From Natronomonas gomsonensis (GTDB taxonomy: Archaea; Halobacteriota; Halobacteria; Halobacteriales; Haloarculaceae): DNA of 64,000 nucleotides. The translations under genes and the position numbers were made by a program. Under the pieces are notes generated by a model. That model made no database searches and was not told the origin of the DNA. It worked only from the letters and a program-made list of their open reading frames with translations. Shown one piece after another: positions 20,991-38,530 of this stretch; position 1 is the first letter of the stretch; every line of letters starts with the position of its first letter. Location: the NCBI RefSeq assembly GCF_024300825.1, contig NZ_CP101323.1:310001-374000 (forward strand), in the 5' to 3' direction.

Positions 20991-21003
20991 TTTTAAAGTA
21001 CTG
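20991..21003 (+). promoter_or_regulatory. TATA-type promoter core
   Basis: TTTTTAAAGTACT about 32 nt before the GTG at 21035; first of a series of near-identical cores (others at 21795, 27875, 30645, 32131, 34254) preceding genes of this module. Confidence 0.45.
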
Positions 21004-21034
21004 AGTGGGTTATCTATAACCGAGGCAAGTCCTC

Positions 21035-21169
21035 GTGATACTCCGTCAAAATCCTATACTATACAGGCCCTGCCAACGCTGCGATGAAGATGTATACCTC
21101 TCGATTGGAGATCTGCTTTCCTGCAATCAGCGTGTGCTGTGCTCGGTCTGTAAAGAGCTCAAACCGTGA
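21035..21169 (+). CDS. small four-cysteine zinc protein
   Basis: 44-residue frame from GTG at 21035: 'RPCQRCDEDVYLSIGDLL' then 'CNQRVLCSVCKELKP'. Two CxxC pairs spaced like a zinc ribbon make this a credible microprotein. It is followed 6 nt later by the membrane protein gene; the end of this gene (GTGA) may serve in its ribosome binding. Confidence 0.55.
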   Translation: MILRQNPILYRPCQRCDEDVYLSIGDLLSCNQRVLCSVCKELKP

Positions 21170-21175
21170 GATCAG

Positions 21176-21781
21176 TTGAGCAAGATCCTCTATACACTAT
21201 TGAAAGCGTTTCTGAAGACCGGTAGACTCGCTGTTTTCAAAGGCCTTGCCAGGATCAGAACACTGTTCTCTTCGAACCTGGGGTTGCTGGGTTGGCTTGT
21301 GCTGGCCTCAATACTGTTTTTTGATCATCAAACTGCTATCGAGACTGCGGTGGAAACCGGGTCGGTGAGGCCTATCGTGGTCTCTTACGGTACCAGTCTT
21401 GGGAACAGTATCGACACGTTCATCGGTGCTTTGCGGCAGGTTCCGCAGTCATCGGGTATGGAGTACGCGGGTTTGCTGTGGGATGGTGTTAGTTCGGCGG
21501 CTTCTGTTCTATGGTAGTTTAAGGCGTTTTATCATGTCAGTGCTTGGCTTACTGGTGACAACGTTCCTCCGTTCTATTTGCTGGGGATCGCGGGCTTGGT
21601 TTATTTCCTTCTCGTGTTTGCGGTGACGGGTTGGATCCCGGACACTGGGACGTTGGAGGCCTTGTCGAATGTTCCAGAGTTGTTTGATCTGGGCAGGGTG
21701 AATCCTTTGAGTGATCCGGGGAATGCGACGAATGTGACGAACTCGACCGGTGTTGACGCGGTCAATTCGACTGTTAAGTGA
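21176..21781 (+). CDS. membrane protein frame interrupted by one in-frame TAG
   Basis: The frame opens at TTG 21176 and encodes a 113-residue membrane protein with a helix near 35-50. TAG at 21515-21517 follows 'SSAASVLW'. The same frame then continues without a start codon or ribosome-binding site as 'FKAFYHVSAWLTGDNVPPFYLLGIAGLVYFLLVFAVTGW' and on to TGA at 21781, adding a second strong helix and an N-glycosylation-rich tail. Either a single protein of about 201 residues with a nonsense mutation or recoded stop, or two coupled frames. TAG is used as a normal stop by other genes here. Confidence 0.5.
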
Positions 21782-21794
21782 AAAAATACCTGTT

Positions 21795-21810
21795 CCTTTA
21801 TAAGTAGTTA
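21795..21810 (+). promoter_or_regulatory. TATA-type promoter core
   Basis: CCTTTATAAGTAGTTA ends 18 nt before the GTG at 21829 and shares TATAAGTAGT with the other cores of this module. It probably drives the 21829-28.1 kb operon. Confidence 0.5.
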
Positions 21811-21828
21811 TCAATATATTTACCGGTA

Positions 21829-22026
21829 GTGGGAAGCACCGGTGAGACAGATCTCGGCATAGAAGAACTGGACGAAGAACAGTTCTCCGAGAAAGACGTC
21901 CGAGAGAAAACCAACGGCCAGAAAGTAGTAACCGTCTCCGCCGGCTGCGATATCGAAGCGGGAGAAGAAGCCGTAGTCATCCGCTCATCCCTGTTCAACG
22001 AACTACGCGAGGTACTCGATATATGA
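21829..22026 (+). CDS. small acidic protein, unknown
   Basis: 65-residue acidic protein from GTG at 21829. The C-terminal half 'QKVVTVSAGCDIEAGEEAVVIRSSLFNEL' has the beta-turn-beta look of small AbrB-like or translation-coupled regulatory proteins, but no family is certain. Its stop overlaps the ATG of the next gene (ATGA arrangement), so the two are coupled. Confidence 0.5.
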   Translation: MGSTGETDLGIEELDEEQFSEKDVREKTNGQKVVTVSAGCDIEAGEEAVVIRSSLFNELREVLDI

Positions 22027-23738: not shown

Positions 23739-23758
23739 TTTGAGGTATAATCTATACT

Positions 23759-24328
23759 ATGGCGAAAGAAGGCTTTGTAGTCGATAAATTCCATGGCGAG
23801 TACTTCGGAGGTCTCGTCAAATTCAAAGACTCGGAGGATTATCCGAGTCGTGTAAACCCCGTAGTAAAACTGCTAAACACACATCCCACAGATCTGTTGA
23901 AGAGGTCGAAAAAGAAGGAGTTTCCGTACGCCTTGGATCCAGAGAAAAACATCCGGAGGATCGAAGGGAAGGGTGATTTCCCGATTATCATCTTGGAGCC
24001 GACCGGCGACATCCCGGATCTCACCAAAGAAGAATACGAGAGTACGATCGGTTACCAGGAAAATGATTCAGAGAAAGAGGAAGCTGAGAAATGGCGTGAG
24101 AAGTACGAGGATAAGGAGAAAGAGTTAGAGTCCGTTAGGAAAGAGAAGGACCGGCTTCTCAAGGAAAAGAAAAGAAGGGAAGAGCGTGAGCAGGCCTCGA
24201 AGAGCTCCGGTTCAAGCGGCGTGACCTGTTCGAACTGCGACGAGACAAATCCTCAAAGCGCTTGGGAGGACAACAACGGATACTGCCCAAGCTGCGATGA
24301 TGTAACTCTCGATGAGGTCAAGGGGTGA
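23759..24328 (+). CDS. coiled-coil protein with C-terminal zinc ribbon
   Basis: Protein of 189 aa. The N-terminal 95 residues form a compact basic/acidic domain of unknown type ('VDKFHGEYFGGLVKFKD...YALDPEKNIRRIEG'). About 105-150 is a highly charged coiled coil; about 160-180 is a zinc ribbon 'CSNCDETNPQSAW...YCPSCDD'. No signal peptide, so it acts inside the cell, possibly as an adaptor to the ATPase encoded downstream. Confidence 0.55.
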   Translation: MAKEGFVVDKFHGEYFGGLVKFKDSEDYPSRVNPVVKLLNTHPTDLLKRSKKKEFPYALDPEKNIRRIEGKGDFPIIILEPTGDIPDLTKEEYESTIGYQENDSEKEEAEKWREKYEDKEKELESVRKEKDRLLKEKKRREEREQASKSSGSSGVTCSNCDETNPQSAWEDNNGYCPSCDDVTLDEVKG

Positions 24329-24334
24329 TGTTCA

Positions 24335-25282
24335 GTGGCTAACTTGATCAACGACGATGCTTTTGACAAGTTGGAGCAGGAGATGGTGCAGAACCAGGAG
24401 CTGAGCCGTGCTGTTGAAAGCCTGAAAGATGATATTGAGGGCGAGATCGACCAGGACAAAACCATCGGTCAGTACAACCTGGAAAGAGAACTGGATAGTA
24501 GGGAGAGAACGATTGATTCTGCATTAAGCAGTGCCCTCGCAAAGGCGAATAACGTCAAAGGCAATTCTGAGGATCTCCAGGACCGAACTGAGGAAGATGA
24601 TTTTGAGCGGAATATGCGGCGGGATGCTGTCGATAGTGATGATATGGAAGAGGCCTTAGATATCATCGAGGAGTACGAGCAGTTGGTGGCCCGGCTTACT
24701 CTTGTCCTGAAGATCTACCGTGATGACCGTCAGCTGCTTCGTGGCGGAATTGATATTCAGCAGCAGCGGGCGAACGAGTCTGAGGTCATGGATATGTTGA
24801 AGAACATGACCGAGGCCCAGCAGGAGCAGTTCAAAAGCATGGCTAATGAGATGAGTGATGAGCTCAGTCAGAGGCTTGAGAGAATGATTGATGATAAGAT
24901 GGAGGCCTCCGAGCAGCAGAAGGAGTTGATGGAGCAGATGCAGGAGACTGCACAGGAGTTGAAAGAAGCTCGTGAAACTCCGGTAGAAGTAGTTCATCAA
25001 GGACAGTCAGAGGAAAACACCGGGGATCAGGACAGCACTCAATCTTCTTCGGATAGTTCCGAAACCGAGTCCAGTAAGAATGGTACAGGTAGCAGCAGCG
25101 AAGAAGAGGATCATCCTGATCTCACCGAGATTCAGACCGAGCTCTACAATCTGGTTCAGGACAATCCGGACGAGGATGTGGAATGGTACGCAGATCAAAT
25201 GGATCAAGAGCCGCGGCTGCTGAAGATGTGGAAGTCCAAAATCCAGAAGGTAGAGGGTTACGAGGACTTCAGTCTCGAATAA
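24335..25282 (+). CDS. long acidic coiled-coil protein
   Basis: Protein of 315 aa from GTG 24335 (GGGGTGAT 5 nt upstream). Residues 1-215 are nearly all helix with Gln/Glu/Met-rich heptads ('MLKNMTEAQQEQFKSMANEM'); 225-265 is a Ser/Glu/Asp-rich linker; the last 45 residues ('EIQTELYNLVQDNPDEDVEWYADQM') look like a small helical domain. Cytoplasmic by absence of a signal. Possibly a scaffold for the membrane complex. Confidence 0.55.
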   Translation: MANLINDDAFDKLEQEMVQNQELSRAVESLKDDIEGEIDQDKTIGQYNLERELDSRERTIDSALSSALAKANNVKGNSEDLQDRTEEDDFERNMRRDAVDSDDMEEALDIIEEYEQLVARLTLVLKIYRDDRQLLRGGIDIQQQRANESEVMDMLKNMTEAQQEQFKSMANEMSDELSQRLERMIDDKMEASEQQKELMEQMQETAQELKEARETPVEVVHQGQSEENTGDQDSTQSSSDSSETESSKNGTGSSSEEEDHPDLTEIQTELYNLVQDNPDEDVEWYADQMDQEPRLLKMWKSKIQKVEGYEDFSLE

Positions 25283-25304
25283 ACTATTGGAGGTGAAGAA
25301 TCAG

Positions 25305-25697
25305 ATTTCACTAGAGATAAGAAAATTCCGGGATAATAAGAAAAATGAGGATGTTACCGTCGAGGATGTCTCGAAGAGTAGTTTCAACAGTATAGAGGAG
25401 ATCGCCTATACCGACGGGAGTTACCGTAGGCATCGTTACAAGGTGTACGGATATCCTCCGGGGTCGAAACCTGTTCAGGGCCGGTACAAGGGCTTTTCCA
25501 CGAGGTACTCAGGGTCTTTTGAGGAAGCTCCTGTCGATGCTTTCGGAAGGGAAGATGGTGAAATAGTGGTTAATAAGGAGGAACTGGTTCACCAGCTGGT
25601 CCAGGAGTATGGTGAGGGCCAGTTCTATGTCTACAAATTCGGCGGCAATCCTGAGCAGGAAACCCTGTTCAAGGGTTTTGTAGAGGTGGTATCATGA
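25305..25697 (+). CDS. unknown small protein, probable ATT start
   Basis: About 130 aa. A perfect GGAGGTGA at 25289-25296 is followed after 8 nt by ATT (25305); the only upstream alternative, TTG at 25287, lies before the ribosome-binding site. The protein is beta-rich and Tyr/Gly-rich ('YTDGSYRRHRYKVYGYPPGSKPVQGRYKGF') with a helical C-terminal part ('EELVHQLVQEYGEGQFYVYKF'). No domain recognised. Overlaps the next gene by 4 nt. Confidence 0.5.
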   Translation: MSLEIRKFRDNKKNEDVTVEDVSKSSFNSIEEIAYTDGSYRRHRYKVYGYPPGSKPVQGRYKGFSTRYSGSFEEAPVDAFGREDGEIVVNKEELVHQLVQEYGEGQFYVYKFGGNPEQETLFKGFVEVVS

Positions 25698-25873
25698 TAG
25701 AGTTCGCTGAACATCACTTGCTGATCGCACTTGCAGCAATGATCGTCATCCAGGCCCTGACCGTAGTGAACGGTAGAAAGTTTGGAGGCGTCATCATGGG
25801 TTTCATCGTGGGTACGTTGATCGGTGCGTCAACCTTCTGGATCGTCCTGATATTCTTACCTCAGGTGATTTAA
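25694..25873 (+). CDS. small two-helix membrane protein
   Basis: 59 aa from ATG 25694, with GAGGTGGT just upstream. Two hydrophobic helices separated by 'TVVNGRKFGG'. Overlaps the preceding gene and is followed within 5 nt by the next; GGTGAT at its 3' end serves that gene. Unknown; fits a small subunit of a membrane complex. Confidence 0.6.
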   Translation: MIEFAEHHLLIALAAMIVIQALTVVNGRKFGGVIMGFIVGTLIGASTFWIVLIFLPQVI

Positions 25874-25877
25874 CACA

Positions 25878-26525
25878 GTGAGATGGACCGATGTCAGAAA
25901 CTATGGAGTAGTAGTGATTCTTCTAATCATCGGTAACTCGTTTTTAGAGATTATTCCTTGGGTTCCGCACTTTGCAGGCCTCATGGCGTTGCTCGTCGGA
26001 ACATTCGTTTACTACAAGATGGGCGGTTCTGGATGGGATTTCACGCTGGACAATGTGGGATCGGCTTCGGGAGACTCTGAGTTGGAGGTGCAGGTGGAAC
26101 CCGAAGAAGCACCACGAAAATTGAATCAGAAGGTCAGAGATCATCCTGCACGGAAGGAAATCACGATTGACCGGACCAATAGGGACAGCAGTGAATACAG
26201 CGATGTAGCCCGCGAAGTCACGATCAACGGCAAAGAGAAACTATTCTGGGGTGTTATCGCAAGGCCTCGAGACTCTAAATACAGCGAGAAGATGCGGTAC
26301 ATCTACAATCTGACCGACGACCGGATTTACAAGTACGATGGCGATATCCCGAGTGTCGAGGGACGGCTTGACCCGTTCTACGGCTACACATGGCTCACAA
26401 AGCGAGGAGTTAACGCCAAACGGGATTCTGCAAGCGGCGGAAGGAACCAGATCATCTTGGACCAACGTGACTCCGATAAATCATCAAGGCCTAGAAACGG
26501 GTCTGGAGGTGAGAGTCAGCAGTGA
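25878..26525 (+). CDS. membrane-anchored cytoplasmic-domain protein
   Basis: Protein of 215 aa from GTG 25878 (GGTGAT 8 nt upstream). Two N-terminal helices (about 8-24 and 31-48) are followed by a soluble, positively charged domain ('REVTINGKEKLFWGVIARPRD...YIYNLTDDRIYKYDG') and a Ser/Gly-rich tail. It overlaps the ATPase start by 4 nt, so it is a strong candidate membrane partner of that ATPase. Confidence 0.6.
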   Translation: MRWTDVRNYGVVVILLIIGNSFLEIIPWVPHFAGLMALLVGTFVYYKMGGSGWDFTLDNVGSASGDSELEVQVEPEEAPRKLNQKVRDHPARKEITIDRTNRDSSEYSDVAREVTINGKEKLFWGVIARPRDSKYSEKMRYIYNLTDDRIYKYDGDIPSVEGRLDPFYGYTWLTKRGVNAKRDSASGGRNQIILDQRDSDKSSRPRNGSGGESQQ

Positions 26526-27865
26526 GTGTTCTCGGTCCGTTATGGGATATCGGGGATGACTACCATCGTAACCGTTTGAAAGAGGTTGAAGAAGAAACTG
26601 AAGTCGACTACAGCAACGGGATCCCGGTTGCTCGGAACGTTGAGACGGGAGAGCTCATCCGCATCAAGTTCAACGATACTACGAGAATAGCTGCCTTCGG
26701 TGCTTCAGGTTCTGGGAAAACGGTAGGTGCGAAAGCGATCCTCTCCCGGATCTACGACCACGGCTGGAACGTGATGCACTTCTCGGATGTGAAGCACGAT
26801 TTCCAAGATATCTCCTATAAGGGAGGCGTCAGTAAGGAGTTGATCAGGAAGACAGCAGGTCTTGTTCCTGGAGAAGAACCTCACAGTGTTCCACGGAAGA
26901 TCTTCCAGCCGTGGTTTTTGGCCGACGAATATCCAAAAGGCAAGCCCAGTTACGTAGAGCAGTTCACACTCGGGTTTGAGGATATCGAGGAATCTGATTT
27001 CAAGTCTCTCGTCGATCCTACATCTGAAGCTCAGAAACAGACATTGAATAACTTGATTTCAGGCCTTGATTTGGAGGACGAGACGTTCTCCACTATCAAG
27101 TCGGAACTGGATCACTTGGAGATTGAGTATTCTGGAGGTGACGCATTGAAAGGTGCTCTAAAACGGAGCATTGAATCACTTCAGAATGATAACATCCTCA
27201 GCTCCAGGCTCAGGAAAGATCCGTTCCGGTATGTTAGTTCTTGGAGGTGCCATACCTGTGATGAGTATGTTTTCCCGGACAAGAAGGGCGGCCATGAAGG
27301 ACACAATTTAGAGGAGAGACGGGCTGTTCTTTCCCTAGGGTTGGAGAATTACGATAGGTATACGCCTGATGAGAAGGAGAAATTCCAGTTCTATGTTGCC
27401 TCGATGATGGATAACTTCATACAGGCCTTGCGCCAGGACCGGATTCAAGGACCTTACGTGGTTTTCTGTGATGAGTACCATGAGGTGGTTCCTCGTGATG
27501 AAGAGTCACCGGTTAAGGATAAGTTCCAGAGGATCCTCGATGTCTCCGGAAGACAGAACGATATTGCGACTTTGATTTCTACGCAGAGGCCTTCGCAGGT
27601 TCCAATGCCTGGAAAGAAGTCGCGGTTCGACTTTATCGGAGATTTGGATCATATCTTCATCTCCGAAAATCTGAACGCAGAGGAGTGGAGCGAGGCATTG
27701 AATGCCTTCAACTTTTACAATCCGTCGCACCAGCAGAAATGGAAGGACAAGATCTCGTCGATGGATACCCACCAGTTCCTATATGTGAACCCGAACAAGC
27801 ACGACAGCGTGGAGGACTGCCCTGTAGTGGAGTTTCTAAGTCCTCTTTGGAGCCACACTGGATGA
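26522..27865 (+). CDS. HerA/FtsK-superfamily (VirB4/TraG-like) ATPase
   Basis: Motor ATPase of 447 aa. Walker A 'GASGSGKT' near residues 59-66, an Asp/His region 'FSDVKHDFQD', Walker B 'YVVFCDEYHEVV' near 310, and the 'ISTQRPSQVP' sensor segment near 350, typical of HerA/FtsK pumps. An inserted cysteine-histidine motif 'CHTCDEY...GHEGH' near 240 may bind zinc. Such ATPases move DNA or protein through membranes, in conjugation and in packaging of several archaeal viruses. GTG start with GGAGGTGA upstream. It is the clearest mechanistic anchor of the module. Confidence 0.85.
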   Translation: MSVLGPLWDIGDDYHRNRLKEVEEETEVDYSNGIPVARNVETGELIRIKFNDTTRIAAFGASGSGKTVGAKAILSRIYDHGWNVMHFSDVKHDFQDISYKGGVSKELIRKTAGLVPGEEPHSVPRKIFQPWFLADEYPKGKPSYVEQFTLGFEDIEESDFKSLVDPTSEAQKQTLNNLISGLDLEDETFSTIKSELDHLEIEYSGGDALKGALKRSIESLQNDNILSSRLRKDPFRYVSSWRCHTCDEYVFPDKKGGHEGHNLEERRAVLSLGLENYDRYTPDEKEKFQFYVASMMDNFIQALRQDRIQGPYVVFCDEYHEVVPRDEESPVKDKFQRILDVSGRQNDIATLISTQRPSQVPMPGKKSRFDFIGDLDHIFISENLNAEEWSEALNAFNFYNPSHQQKWKDKISSMDTHQFLYVNPNKHDSVEDCPVVEFLSPLWSHTG

Positions 27866-27874
27866 GGCCTCTTG

Positions 27875-27890
27875 TTTTTTAAGTAGTAAC
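27875..27890 (+). promoter_or_regulatory. TATA-type promoter core
   Basis: TTTTTTAAGTAGTAAC right after the ATPase gene and about 32 nt before the zinc-ribbon ATG; same TTAAGTAGT core as at 21795 and 30645. The T-run may also end the upstream transcript. Confidence 0.5.
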
Positions 27891-27922
27891 TTTCAATTCG
27901 TGGATAGGAGGCTCGTTTTTCC

Positions 27923-28075
27923 ATGGCACAGAAATACAGAGTAAAAGCTGGGTGTGAGGAATGCGGTAATATCTGGAAGACCCAGGCGAAGAGTGATCGT
28001 TCAACGCCTAACGAGTGTCCTGAATGCGGCAGTACGAAAACCTACAGTATCGATAGTTGGCCGGTGAATACGTAA
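27923..28075 (+). CDS. small zinc-ribbon protein
   Basis: 50 aa from ATG 27923. 'KAGCEECGNIWKTQAKSDRSTPNECPECGSTKTYSI' is a textbook zinc ribbon. AGGAGG lies 11 nt upstream. Small ribbons of this type bind nucleic acid or polymerase; role here unknown. Confidence 0.7.
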   Translation: MAQKYRVKAGCEECGNIWKTQAKSDRSTPNECPECGSTKTYSIDSWPVNT

Positions 28076-28076
28076 C

Positions 28077-28367: not shown

Positions 28368-28373
28368 TACAAG

Positions 28374-28673
28374 ATTAGGACGACACGAAAAGGATACTCA
28401 GGACTTCAAATCTTAGGGGTAGTAGCAGTACTTGTTGCAGGAGCTTTTGCTGTTTCTAATTTCGTAGATCCCGGCCAGTTGAACGTCGTAGATACGGATG
28501 ATGGTTGCTGGCGTCCAGCTCCACCGCTTGATAACAATACTTTCAGCTCAGAAAATGAGTTGAGAGATTACGCTTCACAGAACGATATCGACATTCCCGG
28601 GAATATCTCGTTCAAAACCATCAATGACACTCTGTACCAGGAGTGCAACAGGATAGGTGGTAGCAGTGGGTAA
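28374..28673 (+). CDS. type IV pilin-like protein with apparent ATT start
   Basis: 99 aa. The N-terminus reads RTTRKG, then YSGLQILGVVAVLVAGAFAV: a short basic leader, a KG cleavage site and a hydrophobic helix, the class III signal peptide of archaeal pilins and archaellins. The remainder is a small extracellular domain with two Cys residues. The frame contains no ATG, GTG or TTG between an in-frame TGA and the helix; the only candidate is ATT at 28374, 5 nt after GGTGAT. It overlaps the next gene by 8 nt. Confidence 0.6.
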   Translation: MRTTRKGYSGLQILGVVAVLVAGAFAVSNFVDPGQLNVVDTDDGCWRPAPPLDNNTFSSENELRDYASQNDIDIPGNISFKTINDTLYQECNRIGGSSG

Positions 28674-30618
28674 GAAGCTGAAGGCCTCGATTGTAGCAGT
28701 ATTCTTCTTATCTTTGGTTGCTTCGAGTGCTGCTTCTGTGGACTCTGTTGATACTATTACTTTTGAAGAGGGCAGTCAGAAACTGCATATCGGCTATACT
28801 TCCAGTTTTACAACTGATAAGATCAACGTGTACCTTGGTGAGGACGATATCGAGTCTGAAACAGGTGCCGTAGCAGAGGACCCGATCTCATTCAGTGTCT
28901 CTAATCAGGAGACCTACGCAAAGTACCCGACTCAGGATACAGGTCTTGAATCGATCACTGGTTGGGACGCAGTAAAGACTACTGTAGGTTCGAAACAGGA
29001 AGTCTGGGATTGGGTTACGACGAACTGTGCTGATGTGGATGATGCCGGAGAGACCACGATTGACGGGTATGGTACGACTGGTGCTGATGCTGTAGCAAAC
29101 AAGTGGTTCAATTACTATTCTTACAGCTACAGTTATGATCTGTACTGCTGGCAGAGAAACGACTACTATGGGAATGTGGCTGATATCGGTTCTCCTGATG
29201 AGATCTTCCGGACAGAGTGGAGGCTGCAGTCCGGAGACAAGAATCCGCAGACGGCTGTGATCACGAACGGTGTTGGCGGTGCAGGAAGAACTTCTAACCT
29301 TGGTAGACACGCAACAATCCGCTGGGATGGAAGCCTGAAAACCGGTGAGAATCCTCCTCCGGTCGATGATGAACTAGCTCTCCATAGCAATAACTACGAA
29401 AATGGTTGGAGAGTGATAAGTGAGGATAGATATGATGAATATACAGACTGGGTTCAATTAAAGGCCTATGAGAAACTTGAGACATGGGCCTCAAGTGATG
29501 TGCAAGATTTCACTGAAGACAATATAGAGAACGAAATGAATAATAAGGCTGAGCAGGCTGCTTCGGAGTTCACTGAGTCACCGTTATCTGATTCAGAGGT
29601 CCTGGACTCGAGCTTCCAAGACGGTGTATTCAAAGTGGATATGGCCCGTACCAATCAGTACCCGGAATTTGATATAGAGATAGATGCTGGTCAGCAGGCC
29701 TATGCCTCCGTGTACAGGCCTGTTGGGAAACCTGAGATTGTCGGTACTTCTGGTGCTGAGTTCGGTGAACTCGGTCAGGGGACATTCTCCGTCCAGGTTA
29801 AGAATGCTGGACAGGATGAAGGCAGTTTCTCGGCCCGTATCGATTCCTGTGGTGACTATTTCAGCGGGAACAGTTTACAGAATACTAAGGAGGTCTCTCC
29901 GGGTGAGACTGCGTCGTTTGATTTCCGGGTTTCGTTTACTTCGACGAGCTTGACTCAGAGCGAGTTCTCTGACCAATGCAGGGTAGTTGTGGAGGATACT
30001 GGTAGTGGTGAAGAGGTATCGGCCAGTGTCTCTGTCACGGCGACTCAGGAGGACGAGTGTACACAGGGAGATGAGACGAAGCGTGAGGAAGAAGTCAACG
30101 GTGAAATGGTGGATACCATCTACAGCTGTACTAACGGCCTGAAGCTTGAACAAGACGAGGTCTGTGATGTAGATGAGGAAGCACGGTACATTGACGACGA
30201 TGTTCAGTGGGAATGTCGTGATAAGGATTCTCCTCCAGGAACCGGCGGCGGTGGCTGGACTGTTCCAGGCCTTGGATGGCAGGTAGATAATCCGTTCGGA
30301 GGCCTACAATCTATTTGGAGCGGGAACGCTGGTGCATTGACGTATGCACAGCTCCTGCTGTCCTTCATAGGGTTTCTCGGAGGATTTGCTCTTGGAGGGG
30401 TGTTCATCGGTAAGTACGTTGACGGGCTTACAACCGAGTTTATCCCAGTCGGTGATTCGGCTGTAAGACTTGGGTTAGGCCTGATAATCGGCGGACTAGT
30501 GTTCGTGACCGTGTACCAGTTTGTGACGGATCCTCTTGGCTTCCTGCTCACCGTGTTAGGCCTGATTGGGATCGGTTATCTGTACATCAATGGGAGTACT
30601 CCGGATATCACCTTGTAG
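28666..30618 (+). CDS. large secreted protein with C-terminal multi-helix membrane domain
   Basis: 650 aa from GTG 28666 (GGTGGT upstream). Signal peptide about 1-23; extracellular part rich in Tyr, Asp and Cys with paired cysteines ('NCADVDDAG', 'YCWQRND', 'IDSCGDYF', 'CTQGDE') likely in disulfides. The beta-domain near 370-465 ('VQVKNAGQDEGSFSARI') is CARDB-like. A Gly-rich linker then leads to three or four membrane helices (about 560-645). This layout suits a surface receptor or the membrane base of a pilus-like structure. Confidence 0.65.
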   Translation: MGKKLKASIVAVFFLSLVASSAASVDSVDTITFEEGSQKLHIGYTSSFTTDKINVYLGEDDIESETGAVAEDPISFSVSNQETYAKYPTQDTGLESITGWDAVKTTVGSKQEVWDWVTTNCADVDDAGETTIDGYGTTGADAVANKWFNYYSYSYSYDLYCWQRNDYYGNVADIGSPDEIFRTEWRLQSGDKNPQTAVITNGVGGAGRTSNLGRHATIRWDGSLKTGENPPPVDDELALHSNNYENGWRVISEDRYDEYTDWVQLKAYEKLETWASSDVQDFTEDNIENEMNNKAEQAASEFTESPLSDSEVLDSSFQDGVFKVDMARTNQYPEFDIEIDAGQQAYASVYRPVGKPEIVGTSGAEFGELGQGTFSVQVKNAGQDEGSFSARIDSCGDYFSGNSLQNTKEVSPGETASFDFRVSFTSTSLTQSEFSDQCRVVVEDTGSGEEVSASVSVTATQEDECTQGDETKREEEVNGEMVDTIYSCTNGLKLEQDEVCDVDEEARYIDDDVQWECRDKDSPPGTGGGGWTVPGLGWQVDNPFGGLQSIWSGNAGALTYAQLLLSFIGFLGGFALGGVFIGKYVDGLTTEFIPVGDSAVRLGLGLIIGGLVFVTVYQFVTDPLGFLLTVLGLIGIGYLYINGSTPDITL

Positions 30619-30644
30619 CAGGAACTCCGGTTTCTTTGCCCTTG

Positions 30645-30659
30645 TTTTAAAAGTAGTAG
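30645..30659 (+). promoter_or_regulatory. TATA-type promoter core
   Basis: TTTTAAAAGTAGTAG, 20 nt before the ATG at 30680. Same core as the other module promoters. Confidence 0.5.
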
Positions 30660-30679
30660 TTGTTATACCGTTTATAGAA

Positions 30680-30934
30680 ATGTATCCTTTTTTCCAAAAC
30701 CGGTTAAAGGCAGGCGGGGACCAATACAGGGCCTTGCTTGGAGAGGGTTTTGACCTTCGCTATTCGGATCTGCCCAGGAATGGTAGAAAGAACACACTTG
30801 GTGTTCGATGGCTTGGAGCCGGCCAGTTGAGAACAGGTGTGAATAATATACGCCTGGCAGCGGCGACTCCGATAGCATTTCTAAATTCTTTGGGTCGAAG
30901 TCCTATGCTTCAGCAGGTTCAGTCCCTTGCTTGA
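30680..30934 (+). CDS. small basic protein, unknown
   Basis: 84 aa, MYPFFQNRLKAGGDQYRALL..., basic and Gly/Leu-rich, without cysteines or a clear membrane span. It differs from the acidic norm of the element, which suggests nucleic acid or membrane binding, or that the frame is not translated. Promoter core directly upstream supports transcription. Confidence 0.4.
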   Translation: MYPFFQNRLKAGGDQYRALLGEGFDLRYSDLPRNGRKNTLGVRWLGAGQLRTGVNNIRLAAATPIAFLNSLGRSPMLQQVQSLA

Positions 30935-30963
30935 CCCAATCTCATGGAGGTGACAAATTAAAT

Positions 30964-32001
30964 ATGGATGCAAAAACAGGAGTAGCACTTAGTCTCGCAG
31001 TAGCAGTGATCGTGGCTGTAGGAGCCGGTACCAACGGCTTCGGAATGCTGAACGTAACCGGTGGTGACAACGGTGGAGATGATACTCAACCAGCTCCCTC
31101 TGGCGACACAGTCTCAGTCAACGACTGGGGTGTAGATGGTGAAGTAACCCTTCCACTTGATGTATCGTCAGCAGAAGTGTACAAGTTCGAACCTGGTGTA
31201 GATGTCCCGGATGTTGGTGATTACGACGACTTCTCGATCAGTGATGCAACAAGCGGTCTTCAGGCCGGAGTTGACTATGAAGTCGTGGAGATCAGCAACG
31301 GAGACACAGCGACTTTAAGCGAGGTACAGCACAATGATCAGCCGTACCAGTTCGTCCTAGTGGACAACAGCGATCCAAGAGAGTACCACTACAGTTTCTG
31401 GCAGGAATCAATGCCTGAGGAAGTAGGAACGGCATTTGCCGAAGCTGGAAAGACGATCAACCTGGACGACAACGCCAACTTTGATCAGTGGGCAACGTAT
31501 GGAACAGACTCTGCTGGTTACAAACTTTCTGACAGTAAGTACTTCAGCGCTGGAAGCGATCTAACCATTGAGAGCAACGGTTCTAAGACAGTGACACTGG
31601 AGAGATCTGTCGAAGTAACACAGGGAGTTGCCTACCTCGGAGACGTCGAAGTCACGGGCTTCAACGATGGTGAAGGAATTTCCGAAGTCGATATCTCAGT
31701 GATGGTCGATGGAAAAGAAGTCTACAGTGACAGTCTGAAGGACGGTTCCACAGGACCTCTATCAGATGAGACCTCAGTCAGAAACGCTCTCACGAACAGT
31801 GACGCAGATCTAAGCATGGATCCACAGATGGCAAGTGATACTGTGGAGATCCAGGTCGAAGTTACTGGAGAGTTCGACACTGACGAGAATGTCGACGGCG
31901 ACGGCCAGATCGGGCCTGGTGAGTCGATCATCAGCCTGAACGCTTACGACATCTTCGACAACGCAGTCGGAGATGGATCTGCAGTCTCTTTCCAGGGGTA
32001 A
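30964..32001 (+). CDS. candidate major structural (pilin/capsid-like) surface protein
   Basis: 345 aa from ATG 30964, preceded by a strong GGAGGTGA. N-terminal hydrophobic helix 'VALSLAVAVIVAVGAG' (about 6-21) and then a very acidic, beta-rich, cysteine-free ectodomain. Codon choice is more uniform and C-ending than in neighbours. The gene is isolated, has an excellent ribosome-binding site and is followed by a long T-rich terminator, features expected of a highly expressed structural protein. No family recognised. Confidence 0.55.
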   Translation: MDAKTGVALSLAVAVIVAVGAGTNGFGMLNVTGGDNGGDDTQPAPSGDTVSVNDWGVDGEVTLPLDVSSAEVYKFEPGVDVPDVGDYDDFSISDATSGLQAGVDYEVVEISNGDTATLSEVQHNDQPYQFVLVDNSDPREYHYSFWQESMPEEVGTAFAEAGKTINLDDNANFDQWATYGTDSAGYKLSDSKYFSAGSDLTIESNGSKTVTLERSVEVTQGVAYLGDVEVTGFNDGEGISEVDISVMVDGKEVYSDSLKDGSTGPLSDETSVRNALTNSDADLSMDPQMASDTVEIQVEVTGEFDTDENVDGDGQIGPGESIISLNAYDIFDNAVGDGSAVSFQG

Positions 32002-32044
32002 CTCTGGATGAGCTGTAGGTTTATTGGCCCAAGTAAAAGGCCTC

Positions 32045-32078
32045 ACTTCCCCCCTTTTCCCTTTTCTTTTTAATTACT
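32045..32078 (+). terminator. pyrimidine/T-rich terminator
   Basis: CCCCCCTTTTCCCTTTTC followed by TTTTTAATTACT, just beyond the gene at 30964-32001. T-rich runs without a hairpin are the usual archaeal termination signal. Confidence 0.55.
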
Positions 32079-32130
32079 ATATGAGTTCACTTGTGTTCAT
32101 ATCTATCTCCGATTTGTCTAATACCTGATG

Positions 32131-32143
32131 TTTTATAACTAGT
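32131..32143 (+). promoter_or_regulatory. TATA-type promoter core
   Basis: TTTTATAACTAGT, 24 nt before the GTG at 32168. Confidence 0.45.
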
Positions 32144-32167
32144 TCTGAATAATTTCTCCTTGTAGCA

Positions 32168-33853
32168 GTGAGTCTTCCTGACTTAAAATATGTAGCTGTA
32201 GCATTGTTCGCACTACTGGGTTTAGGCCTGATTTCGTTCTCTCAGTTTTCTCTCTCCACTGTTTCTGGTCAAAGTACTGTAGATCTGACCTCGAATAGTG
32301 ACTGGACGGGATACAGTAGTTTCTATGAAAGTGCTGAGATCTATGGATATTCTATTTCTATGGAGAATATGGGGAACTACGGTGGAAACACAGCCAATGT
32401 AGCAAAGTTGAATTTTGATGGAGAGAGCATAATGTTAGATGCGGGAGAGAACTATATAGAGGACGGTATTAAGATATCAAATGTTCGTGGCACCGGACAA
32501 TGGATGTCTGGTAGTTGTGAATGTTACTTGGCCATCAGCTACAGCTTGGGTATCGATGTTCCTGATGACCGGTTTTCTATCGAGATGAGTGAGGTGCAGG
32601 TCAGTGATACAGGTCCTGGACAGAGAAGTGTTGAGTACAACGTTTCGGTCCAGAATGATTGGCACCGGTTGAATGTTGGGCGTCTCTATGCTGATGTCGC
32701 CGGCGAGGAGATCGTTTTGATGGAGGATGCGTTGTTGCCGAGCGGGACTACCGAGTTCACAGTTACAGATTCCATCAGTGACTACAACAGTTCCAAATAC
32801 ATTGTTGAGGAATCGATGGAGAAACAGACTAAAGTCGTTATCGAGGATCCGTCTATACCGGACGGAGAGAAAAGAATCTACGGTGATAAAGGAAGTAAGT
32901 CACCTGATTTCAACTTGGAGGATATCGAGACAGAACCGGTTTCCTTCAATGTGGATTACCAGTTCTGCGGTGAAGCTGCTACCTATAGAGATGGGGAGTG
33001 TGTTCTCGACGAGGATCTTCATTTACGGGGTGATACCTGCTTCCTGCCGGAGAACTATACGATTGTTACGGAGACCTTCAGTCCTGGAACCTACGACAGA
33101 AGCGATGTAGCACCTGACCCTTCTTACTTTTGCAGTAGGCATCCAGCCATCGTAACAAATGACGGAGTGCAGAGTGACAGGATCTTAGGACCTTACAAAT
33201 CTCTTGTCGATAGTGAAGACTTCACTGTTCCGCAGGGTCAGACCTACACCCTGTTCTGGGTAGTCAATGCGAATGAGGTAGAGGTGAACAGGGTCTGTGA
33301 GGAAGGGTCTCTGAATAAGACGACCGGTAATTGTGTCGTGAAGCCGGGCGTGGTCCACAAATGCTCCGAGGGTCAGTGGAGTGCTGAACAGGGCAGCTGT
33401 GTAGTAAACCCTGATACGAAGAATATCTGTGAGAAAGGCCGGTATAACAAGGAACTCGGTGTCTGCGTATTCAACCCTCCTAATCAGGCCTCGTGTGATA
33501 GAGGGGAGTATGATCCAGATCAAGAGAGCTGTGTCTATACACCAGAGACGGAAGCTGAGTGTGATAGAGGAGAGTTCCAGTCTGATACTGGGACTTGTGT
33601 CTATGAGCCTCCTGTAAAGCCGGAGTGTCCGATCGGTTCCACACTGGGAGACGATGGTGTCTGCTATAGTCAGGCCTCTGTACAGCAGGTTTGTCCTGAC
33701 GGGGTTAACGGCAGTATTCAGGGCGGTCGTTGCGTGACTGACGCTGTTACTGTTGCGCGGGATAATCCGTTGTCCAGCTTCCGAGTCTTCGTATTCGACG
33801 CTCAAAACTGGTTTGAGGAAAATATAGTCAAATCGTTGCCTTGGATAGGGTAG
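32168..33853 (+). CDS. secreted protein with tandem cysteine repeats
   Basis: 561 aa from GTG 32168. Signal-anchor at about 8-28; beta-rich middle; residues about 375-530 hold roughly seven repeats of about 25 residues of the form C-x(2)-G-x(n)-G-x-CVxxP ('CEKGRYNKELGVCVFNP', 'CDRGEYDPDQESCVYTP', 'CDRGEFQSDTGTCVYEP'), like extracellular disulfide modules. The last 25 residues form an amphipathic tail. Repeats suggest a stalk or ligand-binding region exposed outside the cell. Confidence 0.6.
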   Translation: MSLPDLKYVAVALFALLGLGLISFSQFSLSTVSGQSTVDLTSNSDWTGYSSFYESAEIYGYSISMENMGNYGGNTANVAKLNFDGESIMLDAGENYIEDGIKISNVRGTGQWMSGSCECYLAISYSLGIDVPDDRFSIEMSEVQVSDTGPGQRSVEYNVSVQNDWHRLNVGRLYADVAGEEIVLMEDALLPSGTTEFTVTDSISDYNSSKYIVEESMEKQTKVVIEDPSIPDGEKRIYGDKGSKSPDFNLEDIETEPVSFNVDYQFCGEAATYRDGECVLDEDLHLRGDTCFLPENYTIVTETFSPGTYDRSDVAPDPSYFCSRHPAIVTNDGVQSDRILGPYKSLVDSEDFTVPQGQTYTLFWVVNANEVEVNRVCEEGSLNKTTGNCVVKPGVVHKCSEGQWSAEQGSCVVNPDTKNICEKGRYNKELGVCVFNPPNQASCDRGEYDPDQESCVYTPETEAECDRGEFQSDTGTCVYEPPVKPECPIGSTLGDDGVCYSQASVQQVCPDGVNGSIQGGRCVTDAVTVARDNPLSSFRVFVFDAQNWFEENIVKSLPWIG

Positions 33854-33864
33854 GTGATCCGAGA

Positions 33865-34245
33865 ATTTATAGAGCAGTTGCTGTGGCAACCACGGTCTTT
33901 CTCTTAATGAGCCTGTGGATGATCTCCTCGCCTGATTTTAGTGGTGATGCTGTTATTGAGAAAGAGAACCTGACTTTTCATCTTGAACAAGGTTACAGGT
34001 TGACCGGTGAAGGTGGAGAGGCTCTCAAGGCCTACGGCGCTACCTATCCTGAGAATGGTTCGCATCAGGTCCGTTTAGCTACTAAGTGGACTCGAACTGG
34101 TATTTACTATACCTGTCTCCACGAAATGCAGCATGTAGAATTAAGTTCTGAGAACCTGTCTTACAGCGAGGAGCACTCTAAGATCGGGATTTTCCCAAGG
34201 TATGACTCTAGATGTAATTTCTTGCTGTGGCAGAGTCCTCTATAA
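33865..34245 (+). CDS. small secreted or membrane-anchored protein, probable ATT start
   Basis: About 126 aa from ATT 33865, 6 nt after GGTGAT; a TTG at 33841 would start before the ribosome-binding site. N-terminal hydrophobic helix 'AVAVATTVFLLMSLWMI' then a small ectodomain with two Cys ('YYTCLHEM', 'SRCNFLL'). Unknown. Coupled to the cysteine-repeat protein upstream. Confidence 0.45.
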   Translation: MYRAVAVATTVFLLMSLWMISSPDFSGDAVIEKENLTFHLEQGYRLTGEGGEALKAYGATYPENGSHQVRLATKWTRTGIYYTCLHEMQHVELSSENLSYSEEHSKIGIFPRYDSRCNFLLWQSPL

Positions 34246-34253
34246 TCCCAGTG

Positions 34254-34266
34254 TTTTATAACTTAT
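34254..34266 (+). promoter_or_regulatory. TATA-type promoter core
   Basis: TTTTATAACTTAT, 18 nt before the ATG at 34285; nearly identical to the core at 32131. Confidence 0.45.
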
Positions 34267-34284
34267 TTTATCCCGTTTTTAAGT

Positions 34285-37200
34285 ATGGGTTCTCACCGAA
34301 AGATCTCCTACCTAATAGCGATGGCTGTACTTTTTTGTCTGTCAATATCTTCTGCAGCTGCTGAAGATCTTACCGTCTCAGACGGCCAGACTACAACTCT
34401 TTGTGGCAATGTTACAGACTCCAACGGAGATCTCTACGAGAACGCGGTGATCAATGGTACGGTCGAAGTCTGCGAATATGACGGTAGCTCGGGGGGAAAG
34501 CTCAATCTCACTGTACAGAACACCATCAAAGTACACGGCACAATCAACGCAACAGGAGCAGGATACCAAGGCGGTGAGAATAATACAATATCAAGATCAG
34601 GATATGCCAGTTATAAGGATTATCAACCAGGAAACTCCGGGTCAGGTCAGGGCTCTGGTGGAGCTGGCGGAGCTGAATACGGAGACCCAAACGCTGCCAA
34701 CGGTGGAGGCGCAGGTTTTGGAGGAGAAGGGGTTAAAGGAGGAGACCCTGCTGATGGAGACGGTTCTGGAGGGCCAGCCGGTTCAACCTACGGTACAAAA
34801 ACTCTTGATGACCTATACTTAGGATCTGGAGGAGGATCTGGAGGAGTTGCCATAGAGTCAGGAGAGTTCTACGGGACTGCGGTTTCAGGATCAGGAGGAG
34901 ATGGAGGAGGAGCAGTCTATCTAAATGGCTACAATCTCAGTGTATCAGGTCAAATAGCTGCTAACGGCGAAAAAGGCCGTAGAGGAAGGATACACAACGA
35001 ATCCTCATATGGGGTGACTGTATATGCTGGAGGCGGAGGTGGAGGTTCCGGAGGAAGTATTAAAATTCATGGATACGACGTTAACCTCCGCTCTGGCTCT
35101 GTTATTAATGCTTCCGGCGACTATGGCGGAAAAACCACCTGGGGCCAAAAAAATACAGAATATGGCTGTTGTAAAGGTACGGGAGGAGGAGGACGTATCT
35201 CAACAAGTTATGGCCAATATGAGGCCTCTGGAACACTTGATGTGGAGGGCGGAAATCTCGGAACAACCTATGAAACAGCCGGATATCCGGGGAACCATAC
35301 GATCACAGATGCACGTTTAGAATGGACGATAAATGACTCGAAGAAACTAGTTTTAGAATTTGATGACTGGGGCGAGAAAGACATTGCATCCCATGCAGCG
35401 GTGGACTTTGGTGATGTTTCTGAGTTCACTAATAGTACTCTTGTAGTGGAGAATGTTACGACGCCGTTTGAATGGCAACCAAATATAGTGGATCAGAAAG
35501 GCCTGAAAACAGATAAAGACTGGAACATCAGTGTTGGTACTGAACTTGATCCGTCTAATTCCGGTCTTAAACACATTGTCCACAGCAGGTCTAATACAAG
35601 CACTCAGGTTCTTCGTTCGACAGCAAGAGTCGATATTCGGGGTAGCCGTATCAATTATTCAGTTAAAGCCACACCTCCGTCTGGTAACTTCACATCCTAC
35701 CTTGGTGAGGATAATGTGTCTACTCAGCAGGGCGAGAAGGGTACAGTAGATCTTGAATGGGACTGGGGTATAGATGAGATAGAAACTACAAATACGCTTG
35801 AGTTCCAGAGCTACTCGGTATTCGGGTTAGCGAACAGATATGCCTTGAGGTTTGAAAACACGGGGGAAAGGGATTTTGTAGTCCCTTCAGGTTCTTTAGA
35901 GCAGAGTTTGAAGCCTGTCCCGCCTGAAAATGCGGAGTACTGTTATGACTGCGAGGATAACACATTCAATCTTTCAAGCGGTGAAGAAAGCTCGGAAATT
36001 CACGTTAGAACGTACAGAGACAGGTTTAACAGAAGTATTGGAGAGTGGTATGCTACTCAAGATTCGGTGGCAGGGGACACAGTCTCGATCACTCTCAAAG
36101 AAGTGAACTTCTCCTACAACGGCAGTGAGACTCTCACCGATTTAGACTGGAAGGGATACTCATATGTTCTCTCAAATATCCTCACATTTGGTTCGATCCC
36201 TCAAAACCTAGGTCTGACAAATGACGAAGTAAACCTAATCAGAGGTGAGGGTTCAGAAGGATCCGGACTAGAGGATTCTTGTTCGGAGATCAATCCAGAC
36301 AAAACGTACACTGCAGGAAATTCGTACCAGGTGGAAGACGTTGTTACCTGTAGCGGCAACCTCGTCACAGGGGAAAGGACAGGGATTGAGTTAACGGATT
36401 CTACCGGAGCACCCAGTGTAGGAGAAGCGCTTGATTACTCGATGACGGTGAAGGCCGAGAACCTGTTGAATAGAAGCATTAATGTCTCTGTGAACAATTC
36501 TATGTTCCTCCCAGAACACTCGGAACTCCAGTCTTCAGAGACCTCTAGTATCGATTTAGCTGCTTCAGGAGAACAGGGAGATACCTATGAGAACAGCAGT
36601 GTCCAGTATCGACAAGAGACGGTTCACAGGACTGGTGCTGATTGTCCAAGTGCTTGGAATAAAAGTGGGTCGGTGTGCAGTGTAAGACTGGATGAGGACA
36701 ATACTACAGAGTACAAGTACAGGCATTATGTCGAGGTCGAAAACGACAACGTACGTTCTCTTCCGATCAAGGGACAGGTGGATACCTCCAAGTTTACGGA
36801 CTACAACAATCGAGAGAACGTTACCTGGAACATCAACGGGACACAGGACAACGTCAGATATGATCCTGCCCAAGGAAACTGGACCGTGGAAACCGATTTT
36901 GGCAACAGCAGCCTTCATCAGGGAACATGGTACTTTGAAACCAGTTACGGCGTAGAGGACAGTACTGAGGGCTACCTAGGCGGTAGTCGTCCATCAGGTG
37001 AAAATGAGACGAATTATTCTGTCCAGTTCACGAGTCAGGAGTACTACACCGTTGCCCCCGGATCAAGCTCAAGAATCTACTTCACGGTCTGGAACTACGA
37101 GAAGGATGAGAACACAATTTCCATAGAGACACGGGATACGCAGGCCTGCAGCTACTTTTCCTTGCAGAGTAATTTTGTAGGAGATGAGTTCAGCAAAAAC

Positions 37201-37662
37201 ACATCTCTCAACATACCTGGGACCAGGCAAGATCTTGGAGCTGGCGGTGCCGATGTTATATTAATGGCTAAAGTTAATCTTCCTAATAGGACGGAGCTTC
37301 AAAACCAAGGCCTTGGTGACACCTTCACTTGCCGGTTCGATACAGGTGCAGGGATCGGTGAGGCCCAGCCTCTTAACTTGACAGTAAACGCTGTAGATAC
37401 CACGCCGCGTTGGGTGAAAGGAGTTCGGCAACTGCTTCCGGAACTGCCTGATACTGAGTTAGTAACTCAACAGGAGATCTGCCTGCCACAGGGAGGAGAA
37501 AATACTTCCCGCCTGCAGCAGGTGCAGAGGTATTTGGAAGAAGGGCAGTGCAGCGGCCAACTGTACACTATTCCAAGGCCTACAGGTGAGGCCTCGGCCT
37601 TGATCTTTGGAGCTTTCGTATTCGCAGCAGGTATCAGAAGCTACCGTGGAAGGGTGATCTAA
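34285..37662 (+). CDS. giant glycine-rich adhesin-like surface protein
   Basis: 1125 aa. Signal peptide 1-27. Residues about 90-350 form a glycine-rich beta-helix-like region with repeats such as 'GSGGDGGGAVYLNGYNLSVSGQIAANG' and 'GGGGSGGSIKIHGYDVNLRSG', known from bacterial and archaeal adhesins. Then several beta-sandwich stretches with many N-glycosylation sequons, a Cys pair 'CYDCEDN', and a C-terminal membrane helix 'ALIFGAFVFAAGI'. Most likely displayed on the cell or particle surface for attachment. Confidence 0.65.
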   Translation: MGSHRKISYLIAMAVLFCLSISSAAAEDLTVSDGQTTTLCGNVTDSNGDLYENAVINGTVEVCEYDGSSGGKLNLTVQNTIKVHGTINATGAGYQGGENNTISRSGYASYKDYQPGNSGSGQGSGGAGGAEYGDPNAANGGGAGFGGEGVKGGDPADGDGSGGPAGSTYGTKTLDDLYLGSGGGSGGVAIESGEFYGTAVSGSGGDGGGAVYLNGYNLSVSGQIAANGEKGRRGRIHNESSYGVTVYAGGGGGGSGGSIKIHGYDVNLRSGSVINASGDYGGKTTWGQKNTEYGCCKGTGGGGRISTSYGQYEASGTLDVEGGNLGTTYETAGYPGNHTITDARLEWTINDSKKLVLEFDDWGEKDIASHAAVDFGDVSEFTNSTLVVENVTTPFEWQPNIVDQKGLKTDKDWNISVGTELDPSNSGLKHIVHSRSNTSTQVLRSTARVDIRGSRINYSVKATPPSGNFTSYLGEDNVSTQQGEKGTVDLEWDWGIDEIETTNTLEFQSYSVFGLANRYALRFENTGERDFVVPSGSLEQSLKPVPPENAEYCYDCEDNTFNLSSGEESSEIHVRTYRDRFNRSIGEWYATQDSVAGDTVSITLKEVNFSYNGSETLTDLDWKGYSYVLSNILTFGSIPQNLGLTNDEVNLIRGEGSEGSGLEDSCSEINPDKTYTAGNSYQVEDVVTCSGNLVTGERTGIELTDSTGAPSVGEALDYSMTVKAENLLNRSINVSVNNSMFLPEHSELQSSETSSIDLAASGEQGDTYENSSVQYRQETVHRTGADCPSAWNKSGSVCSVRLDEDNTTEYKYRHYVEVENDNVRSLPIKGQVDTSKFTDYNNRENVTWNINGTQDNVRYDPAQGNWTVETDFGNSSLHQGTWYFETSYGVEDSTEGYLGGSRPSGENETNYSVQFTSQEYYTVAPGSSSRIYFTVWNYEKDENTISIETRDTQACSYFSLQSNFVGDEFSKNTSLNIPGTRQDLGAGGADVILMAKVNLPNRTELQNQGLGDTFTCRFDTGAGIGEAQPLNLTVNAVDTTPRWVKGVRQLLPELPDTELVTQQEICLPQGGENTSRLQQVQRYLEEGQCSGQLYTIPRPTGEASALIFGAFVFAAGIRSYRGRVI

Positions 37663-37666
37663 ACAA

Positions 37667-38530
37667 GTGGGAGCAGTTACAAGCATACTCGTACCGGGAA
37701 ATAACAGCGAACTGGATTTCGTCAATATTTTCGGAATCCTGGGAGTCCTGATTTTCTCCAGTATCATGTTCGCCGTATACGGTACTCAAAGCGGCAACAT
37801 CGATCTCGTGGTTCTCGGGGTCATCTTCGCCTTGATGGGTGTCGCCGGCGTCCTGTTCGTCGAGTTCGGCGCAGGATCATTCTTTACAAGCAGTTCTACG
37901 ATCGCCGAGGCATCGTTTTCAATGTGGGTGGGTATGCTCGCCTTCAATATCCAGACCTTGGTTGCTGGGATCCGTTTGAACGCTTTTGCTCCGCCGACTC
38001 AGGGCTATGCGTTTTCAGCGTTGTCCAGCCAGCAACCCAGCGTGAAGGGGATTGTGAACGGTGTCTGGGCACCTGGCGGTGAGAACTTGGCGTTGCTTGG
38101 GTCCGCTGCTGCACTCGTCATGATTATCTACCAGAAGACGGAGAACATCTTTCTCTCTATCGTGGCGGGCACTACGCCATTTGCCGTGTTATTCGCGTCT
38201 CTGCACGGTGAGACAACTCCATCGTTCTGGGTTTTCGCTGCCTCTGTAATGTTCGTGATGGGAGTATACCTGTTCGGAACAGATCTCGGTGCCGAGCTGC
38301 CGTTAGCCCAGTACATTCCGGTCACATTTGGATTGTTCTACGGCGTGCATAGAGGGATCAATATCTCGAACTTTGGAGGCCTTGGCAACTGGTATACTAC
38401 GATCCTGCAGGCTCCAGAGCCGTTGATCTACGTCTCTTACCTAGTGATCATCTTGGACGCGGTGATGGCCTTGTTCGCCGTGTTATACGTGGCTGACAAA
38501 GTGTACACTGTTAGGGATATCTTGGGCTAA
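37667..38530 (+). CDS. polytopic membrane protein (about eight helices)
   Basis: 287 aa from GTG 37667 with GGGTGAT 8 nt upstream. Hydrophobic helices cover nearly the whole length after residue 20; the loop 'APPTQGYAFSALSSQQPSVKGIVNGVWAPGG' is conserved-looking and outward or pore-facing. Topology resembles VirB6/TrbL-type channel proteins, but no sequence motif proves it. Last gene of the + strand module. Confidence 0.6.
   Translation: MGAVTSILVPGNNSELDFVNIFGILGVLIFSSIMFAVYGTQSGNIDLVVLGVIFALMGVAGVLFVEFGAGSFFTSSSTIAEASFSMWVGMLAFNIQTLVAGIRLNAFAPPTQGYAFSALSSQQPSVKGIVNGVWAPGGENLALLGSAAALVMIIYQKTENIFLSIVAGTTPFAVLFASLHGETTPSFWVFAASVMFVMGVYLFGTDLGAELPLAQYIPVTFGLFYGVHRGINISNFGGLGNWYTTILQAPEPLIYVSYLVIILDAVMALFAVLYVADKVYTVRDILG

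Follow-up and report, generated by a model that had tools for sequence, protein, structure and literature searches.

The window examined here, a 64,000-nt stretch within the 3.65-Mb genome of the haloarchaeon Natronomonas gomsonensis (G000:C1:310001-374000), carries an uninterrupted run of plus-strand genes from ~21.0 to 38.5 kb, and the question raised by this locus is what kind of machinery these genes encode. A first-pass annotation had put the run forward as a candidate undescribed pilus, transfer, or virion apparatus. Much of what it listed was found again in the co-directional block (Table 1): a motor ATPase, recognizable by its Walker A/B motifs and a match to DUF87 (E = 5.4e-6); a membrane protein whose gene overlaps the ATPase gene from upstream; several proteins of one to three helices; a single-helix ectodomain protein; a product with 20 cysteines; a glycine-rich anchored protein; and a polytopic membrane protein. 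The proposed transfer-type apparatus around a HerA/FtsK-superfamily ATPase is likewise supported, and it sits on a mobile element. It is not undescribed: the central protein is Fusexin 1 (Fsx1), and integrated elements carrying fsx1 were published in 2022 (PMC9259645).

A conserved gene block at the left end of an integrated element

The GC content falls sharply at ~20.3 kb, from ~0.62-0.65 to ~0.50. The element that begins here measures 102.4 kb, running from window position 20287 to ~58.7 kb past the window edge, and the block makes up only its left fifth. A profile search for Fsx1 was positive in 8 of 391 Halobacteria genomes, which together with G140 gave nine elements for comparison (the genome of Haloferax sp. 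Q22 is also present in the sample as G293 and G343). A search with the ATPase led to relatives in Q22 and G140, both of which largely keep the gene order of the window from 20.5 to 41 kb. The order of the block genes is kept in Q22, G140, and G394 and in part in G334. For ten gene pairs compared between the window element and Q22, dN/dS was ~0.03-0.24, and all ten genes tested are under strong purifying selection. Because of these ratios we consider the block genes functional and exclude spurious ORFs, and since gene order is also kept in relatives, the block is not a product of chance. The ORF at 21176-21517 encodes only the initial half of a longer membrane protein, whose frame is interrupted by a stop codon; this stop is either a mutation or a sequencing error, and the gene is intact in Q22, G140, and G394.

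TABLE 1 Features of the window (window coordinates)
Feature	Coordinates	Strand	Evidence or distribution
sR-tMet, a C/D-box guide RNA gene of the host; integration target, regenerated	20231..20302	+	Rfam RF02163, 63.7 bits (cut-off 50)
Left attachment site TATGAGTGCCGAGGCC	20287..20302	+	Identical copy at G000:C1:432722
Conserved end gene, coiled-coil protein, outward-pointing	20512..20937	-	Found in all 8 other elements, near element end in most
44-aa CxxC...CxxC protein	21035..21169	+	Kept in Q22, G140, G394
Polytopic membrane protein, split by in-frame stop 21515-21517	21176..21781	+	Single ORF in Q22, G140, G394
65-aa conserved small protein	21829..22026	+	Kept across elements
Secreted/anchored surface protein with Ig-like segment	22023..23738	+	Big_13 3.9e-5, under curated cut-off; kept in 5 elements
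Coiled-coil protein with C-terminal zinc-ribbon-like CxxC pairs	23759..24328	+	Sequence and element comparison
Coiled-coil protein	24335..25282	+	Kept in 5 elements
136-aa conserved cytoplasmic protein	25287..25697	+	Element comparison
59-aa two-helix membrane protein	25694..25873	+	VirB2/VirB3-like in size alone
Membrane protein with soluble C-terminal domain, overlapping ATPase gene	25878..26525	+	Kept in 5 elements
HerA/FtsK-superfamily ATPase, 447 aa, inserted CxxC...HxxH	26522..27865	+	DUF87 5.4e-6
50-aa zinc-ribbon-like protein	27923..28075	+	Element comparison
96-aa membrane protein, two predicted helices	28077..28367	+	Element comparison, hydropathy
Candidate Fsx1 companion, N-anchored, overlapping fsx1 start	28374..28673	+	Equivalent position in 7 of 8 testable elements
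Fusexin 1 (Fsx1), archaeal HAP2/GCS1 homologue	28657..30618	+	NF053506 862.5 bits; 7p4l_A E=1.1e-70
N-anchored ectodomain protein, likely start 30964	30931..32001	+	86% identity in Q22, 33% in G334
Cysteine-repeat surface protein, 20 Cys	32168..33853	+	Elsewhere in Q22 only
Membrane-anchored HExxH (HEMQH) protein, putative metallopeptidase	33841..34245	+	Motif alone, no Pfam match
Large glycine-rich adhesin-like surface protein	34285..37662	+	C-terminal part kept; AgmC_N 1.4e-7, far under cut-off; relatives in 6 other elements
Polytopic membrane protein, conserved APGGEN / HRGIN / ILxAPEP motifs	37667..38530	+	Sequence comparison
TFIIB-like transcription factor	38553..39182	-	PF00382 5.8e-10
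Small membrane protein	39172..39435	-	Element comparison
Coiled-coil regulator-like protein	39432..41060	-	Element comparison
Internal tyrosine recombinase, distinct from att-adjacent one	41652..42803	+	PF00589 1.1e-15; relatives in Q22, G140, G334
Second large adhesin-like protein, related to 34285-37662	52465..56064	-	Matches same proteins of other elements

Fusexin 1 and a candidate companion

The ORF at 28657-30618 had gone unidentified in the first-pass annotation, which matched the block to neither standard conjugation systems nor known haloviruses. It scored 862.5 bits against the NCBIfam equivalog NF053506 (cut-off, 650; model positions 1 to 610 of 610) and matched the Fsx1 ectodomain structure (PDB 7P4L, chain entry 7p4l_A; E = 1.1e-70, residues 43-552). 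Its hydropathy segments at residues 1-19, 561-579, 598-616, and 622-640 correspond to a signal peptide and C-terminal membrane helices. These matches identify the product as Fsx1, the archaeal homologue of the eukaryotic gamete fusion protein HAP2/GCS1; the structure of Fsx1 has been described, other Fsx1 proteins fuse mammalian cells when expressed, and the fsx1 gene is carried by integrated elements that also encode Xer recombinases, HerA, and VirB4 (Moi et al. 2022, PMC9259645). From the identity of Fsx1 and this published location, we assign the block as the surface/ATPase module of an fsx1 element. The locus has the features by which such elements are recognized, namely, an island of deviant GC content absent from relatives, shared gene order, an Xer-type recombinase, and HerA/VirB4-type ATPases. 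Homology to a characterized system, which had been named as grounds for giving up the original proposal, was found in part, in that the block is clearly homologous to a described class of element. The kind of element is already known, and this copy is newly bounded at both ends; apparently new are the complete ends, the landing site and the integrase linked to it, a candidate companion protein for Fsx1, and an ATPase module tied to fsx1.

The candidate companion (28374-28673) is anchored in the membrane at its N terminus and carries two conserved cysteines, and its stop lies at or near the fsx1 start. It was found directly upstream of fsx1 in seven of the eight testable elements (the window element, Q22, G140, G394, G334, G238, and G255) and was absent from the eighth, G151; G403 falls outside the testable set. 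In the window element, Q22, G140, and G394, its frame lacks an ATG, GTG, or TTG codon upstream of the anchor, and the start is probably a conserved AUU/AUC codon (AUU in the window element). Just before the companion, the same four elements have a GTGA-overlapping mini-ORF that stops after 4 to 5 codons. The first-pass annotation had reported a pilin-like protein with a class III signal, and the companion does begin with a class-III-like RKG in the window element, but the pilin-like reading is weak. Homologues in G238, G255, and G334 lack the motif, and for this reason we rejected a class III pilin reading as a conserved feature. Class II fusogens are the entry fusogens of enveloped viruses, and by analogy the companion recalls the small companions of class II viral fusogens. 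On the other side of fsx1, the stretch up to the next gene (30619-30930) is strongly kept in Q22, G140, and G394 without a convincing ORF and is perhaps a promoter or a noncoding RNA.

Element ends, integration target, and integrase

The 16-bp direct repeat TATGAGTGCCGAGGCC occurs at window position 20287 and at G000:C1:432722, 102,435 bp apart. This attachment site coincides with the 3'-terminal 16 nt of sR-tMet, a C/D-box guide RNA gene (Rfam RF02163), and the full gene is regenerated at the left end of the element. Two genomes of the same genus have an empty site: in G001 the match to the left flank breaks off precisely at 20302, and in G004 position 20302 is joined to the right host flank. 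The 16-mer could also be read as the start of a gene (ATG AGT GCC GAG GCC, for MSAEA), a reading that we rejected; no conserved protein follows, and Rfam gives sR-tMet.

The guide RNA gene is single copy in every fsx1 host. The G394, G151, and G238 elements are bounded by this 16-mer, as is G403 at one end, and G255 is bounded by 13 of its bases; a match to RF02163 was present at the corresponding end in all five and in two genomes with empty sites. Two exact copies of the 16-mer were found in 5 of 8 fsx1-positive genomes versus 11 of 383 fsx1-negative genomes (Fisher P = 3e-6). The sR-tMet site is used by six of the nine fsx1 elements. The exceptions are G334, Q22, and G140, the last of which lies at the 3' half of tRNA-Thr with a 47-bp repeat.

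In the window element, G151, G238, and G394, the att copy at the end opposite sR-tMet has a 351-aa integrase encoded ~0.6 kb away (70-74% identical). In G403 a copy at 74% lies on a separate contig, and in G429 a broken copy lies 664 bp from an att copy. Since orthologous integrases adjoin att copies in several elements, we conclude that this integrase family is tied to the sRNA gene. Remnants in G429 and G328, in which the integrase is broken, probably used the sR-tMet target too. In a limited literature search, sR-tMet was not mentioned as an integration site; if it is unreported, a guide RNA target used across haloarchaeal families would widen the list of archaeal attachment sites.

The ATPase module and the surface proteins

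The 447-aa ATPase module was found in five of the nine fsx1 elements, with ATPase identities to the window copy of 89% in Q22 and 54% in G140. The ATPase profile matched strongly in just 4 of the 391 genomes, all of them fsx1 positive, and G140 is a fifth; within this sample, the family is tied to fsx1, with strong relatives in fsx1 genomes only. Weak matches in G453 and G344 were rejected as unrelated HerA-type proteins with the module genes missing nearby. Most of the module is common to the window element, Q22, G140, and G394, and G334 has the 571-, 189-, 315-, 136-, and 215-aa proteins, the ATPase, the 356-aa ectodomain protein, the polytopic protein, and fsx1. G238, G151, G255, and G403 have fsx1 and the end gene (20512-20937) and, except for G403, the large adhesin; in the sequence read from these four (a 23-kb contig for G403), nothing related to the 447-aa ATPase turned up. 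The ATPase is therefore not obligatory for fsx1 function, and the idea that it is a universal fsx1 partner was discarded, as it was not found with four of the nine fsx1 genes. Within the 41.7-kb G255 element (L044 to L038), no DUF87 ATPase was found; this element, which carries dnd-like defense genes, may represent either a minimal or a decayed fsx1 element.

At residues 243-261 the ATPase has a zinc-finger-like CxxC...HxxH insertion in four elements; the insertion is missing from the G334 ATPase. For the ATPase (5 sequences; pLDDT, 42) and the polytopic protein (pLDDT, 43), AlphaFold gave models of too low confidence to be used. Searches of the PDB with the ectodomain, adhesin, surface, and polytopic proteins returned no meaningful match. 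The ectodomain gene (30931-32001) has a dS of 0.45 relative to Q22, compared with 0.9 to over 2 for neighboring genes, and this low synonymous divergence may reflect high expression or recent exchange. After the ectodomain gene, Q22, G140, G394, and G334 share a membrane-anchored protein (L012:10642-11277), which in Q22 and G140 has a JAMM-like HTHPx(n)SxxD motif. This protein and the HExxH protein of the window (33841-34245) are possibly alternative processing peptidases.

How the element might spread

We think it probable that the block serves the 102.4-kb fsx1-carrying integrated element as its cell-surface and transfer module and that it supports a sequence of adhesion, fusion, DNA movement, and integration. 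The large surface proteins and N-anchored ectodomain proteins would dock the carrier cell (or an envelope) to a recipient, and Fsx1, probably with the small companion encoded upstream, would fuse the two membranes. The ATPase module and the membrane proteins would then move or organize the element DNA, and the dedicated tyrosine recombinase would integrate the element at the 3' end of sR-tMet in the recipient, restoring the RNA. Several points count against this reading: the 447-aa ATPase was not found in four of the nine elements, the scanned element proteins included no relaxase, we know of no observed transfer of any fsx1 element, and three of the nine elements do not use sR-tMet. A wider proposal, which we hold only tentatively and which may well be wrong, is that fsx1 elements spread by merging of envelopes (cell-cell or vesicle-cell), using adhesins, an Fsx1-companion complex, and an ATPase machine of their own, a route without parallel among other prokaryotic mobile elements, and that their integrase family is specialized for sR-tMet, a snoRNA-type guide RNA gene, as a class-wide landing site. 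The natural use of archaeal fusexins bears on the origin of eukaryotic gamete fusion, and the ends, the landing site with its integrase, the candidate Fsx1 partner, and the fsx1-linked ATPase module make the fusexin question experimentally addressable.

The module might instead build membrane particles as pR1SE does, with the ATPase packaging element DNA and Fsx1 acting as the entry fusogen. The architecture agrees with that of pR1SE and apHPV, in which many membrane and surface proteins accompany a VirB4/HerA-type ATPase without a known capsid (PMC10818511). The position of the small membrane protein directly upstream of the fusogen would fit as well, as would the low synonymous divergence of the ectodomain protein, which a highly expressed structural protein might show. 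However, the ATPase, Fsx1, and the polytopic protein had no relatives in viral contigs or plasmids, the ATPase and Fsx1 had none in phages, and ten proteins had no structural family (capsid, portal, or terminase) in PHROGs, the ATPase matching a terminase family there at the motif level only, over 68 aa. The viral-contig, phage, and PHROGs searches also led us to reject a standard provirus. A plasmid- or ICE-like load of type I/II restriction, Orc1/Cdc6, and ArdC is present on fsx1 elements of ~93-104 kb; outside the window, the present element encodes ArdC-like antirestriction, restriction-modification genes, a second integrase, a Cdc6/Orc1 initiator, and HerA/VirB4-superfamily ATPases of 694 and 662 aa. 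On balance, we regard spread by particles as unlikely. A conventional conjugation-like export (T4SS or Ced-like) through a pore or pilus, with Fsx1 in some other role such as stabilizing contact, seems a little less likely again. The element ATPases are weakly similar to CedD, VirB4, and TraC models (best E value, 5.3e-8), the two-helix 59-aa protein and the polytopic proteins are of the right kind, and VirB4 and TraG/TraD have been assigned in such elements (PMC9259645). Nevertheless, every ATPase match is far under its family cut-off (best VirB4/Ced-type scores of 17-32 bits, where the cut-offs start at 567), no relaxase was found among the ~50 element proteins scanned with Pfam, and the polytopic protein had no PDB or family match by sequence, VirB6 and VirB2 included, its structure model being of no use here. 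The earlier statement that relaxase, terminase, tail, and capsid are lacking agrees with our Pfam scans and with the viral-contig, phage, plasmid, and PHROGs searches, in which none was found.

A very improbable alternative is that the island is domesticated or decaying, immobile, with surface proteins that serve the host in aggregation or S-layer interaction. The in-frame stop at 21515-21517 in a conserved membrane gene of this copy and the remnants with a broken integrase in G429 and G328 would agree with this, whereas the intact integrase and att repeats, the purifying selection on ten genes, and the patchy distribution across families speak against it.

Relation to known elements

The fsx1 elements of PMC9259645 share with this one fsx1 itself, a composition-deviant island of over 50 kb, an Xer-type recombinase, HerA/VirB4-type ATPases, and gene order; the part of that report available to us makes no mention of exact ends, the sR-tMet target, the linked integrase, or a defined companion and ATPase module. 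By description, pR1SE and apHPV (PMC10818511) are alike in being haloarchaeal, in combining a membrane/surface module with a VirB4/HerA-type ATPase, in having no capsid, and in their ability to integrate, but they differ in GC content (57.6-64.8%, versus ~49% for the block); the block has a fusogen, and a subtilisin gene was not noted in it. The pT26-2 family of Thermococcales and Methanococcales likewise combines, in its core, membrane proteins and a HerA/VirB4-like ATPase and has been proposed to be a novel DNA transfer system, but it occurs in other hosts and has no fusogen; the 12 proteins of its conserved region match nothing outside the family (PMC6972569). Ced/Ted and VirB4-type T4SS have in common with the block a HerA/VirB4-superfamily ATPase and small and polytopic membrane proteins, whereas the matches of the block to them are far under cut-offs and neither a relaxase nor a recognizable VirB6 or VirB2 was found here.

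A tRNA-Tyr gene is present in the G140 and Q22 elements (L010:3426-3499 and L011:17956-18027) and was not detectable in the corresponding region of the window element. A 300-kb plasmid of Halorubrum sp. PV6 (NZ_CP030065.1:110138-110620) encodes a piece that is 61% identical to the 662-aa ATPase.
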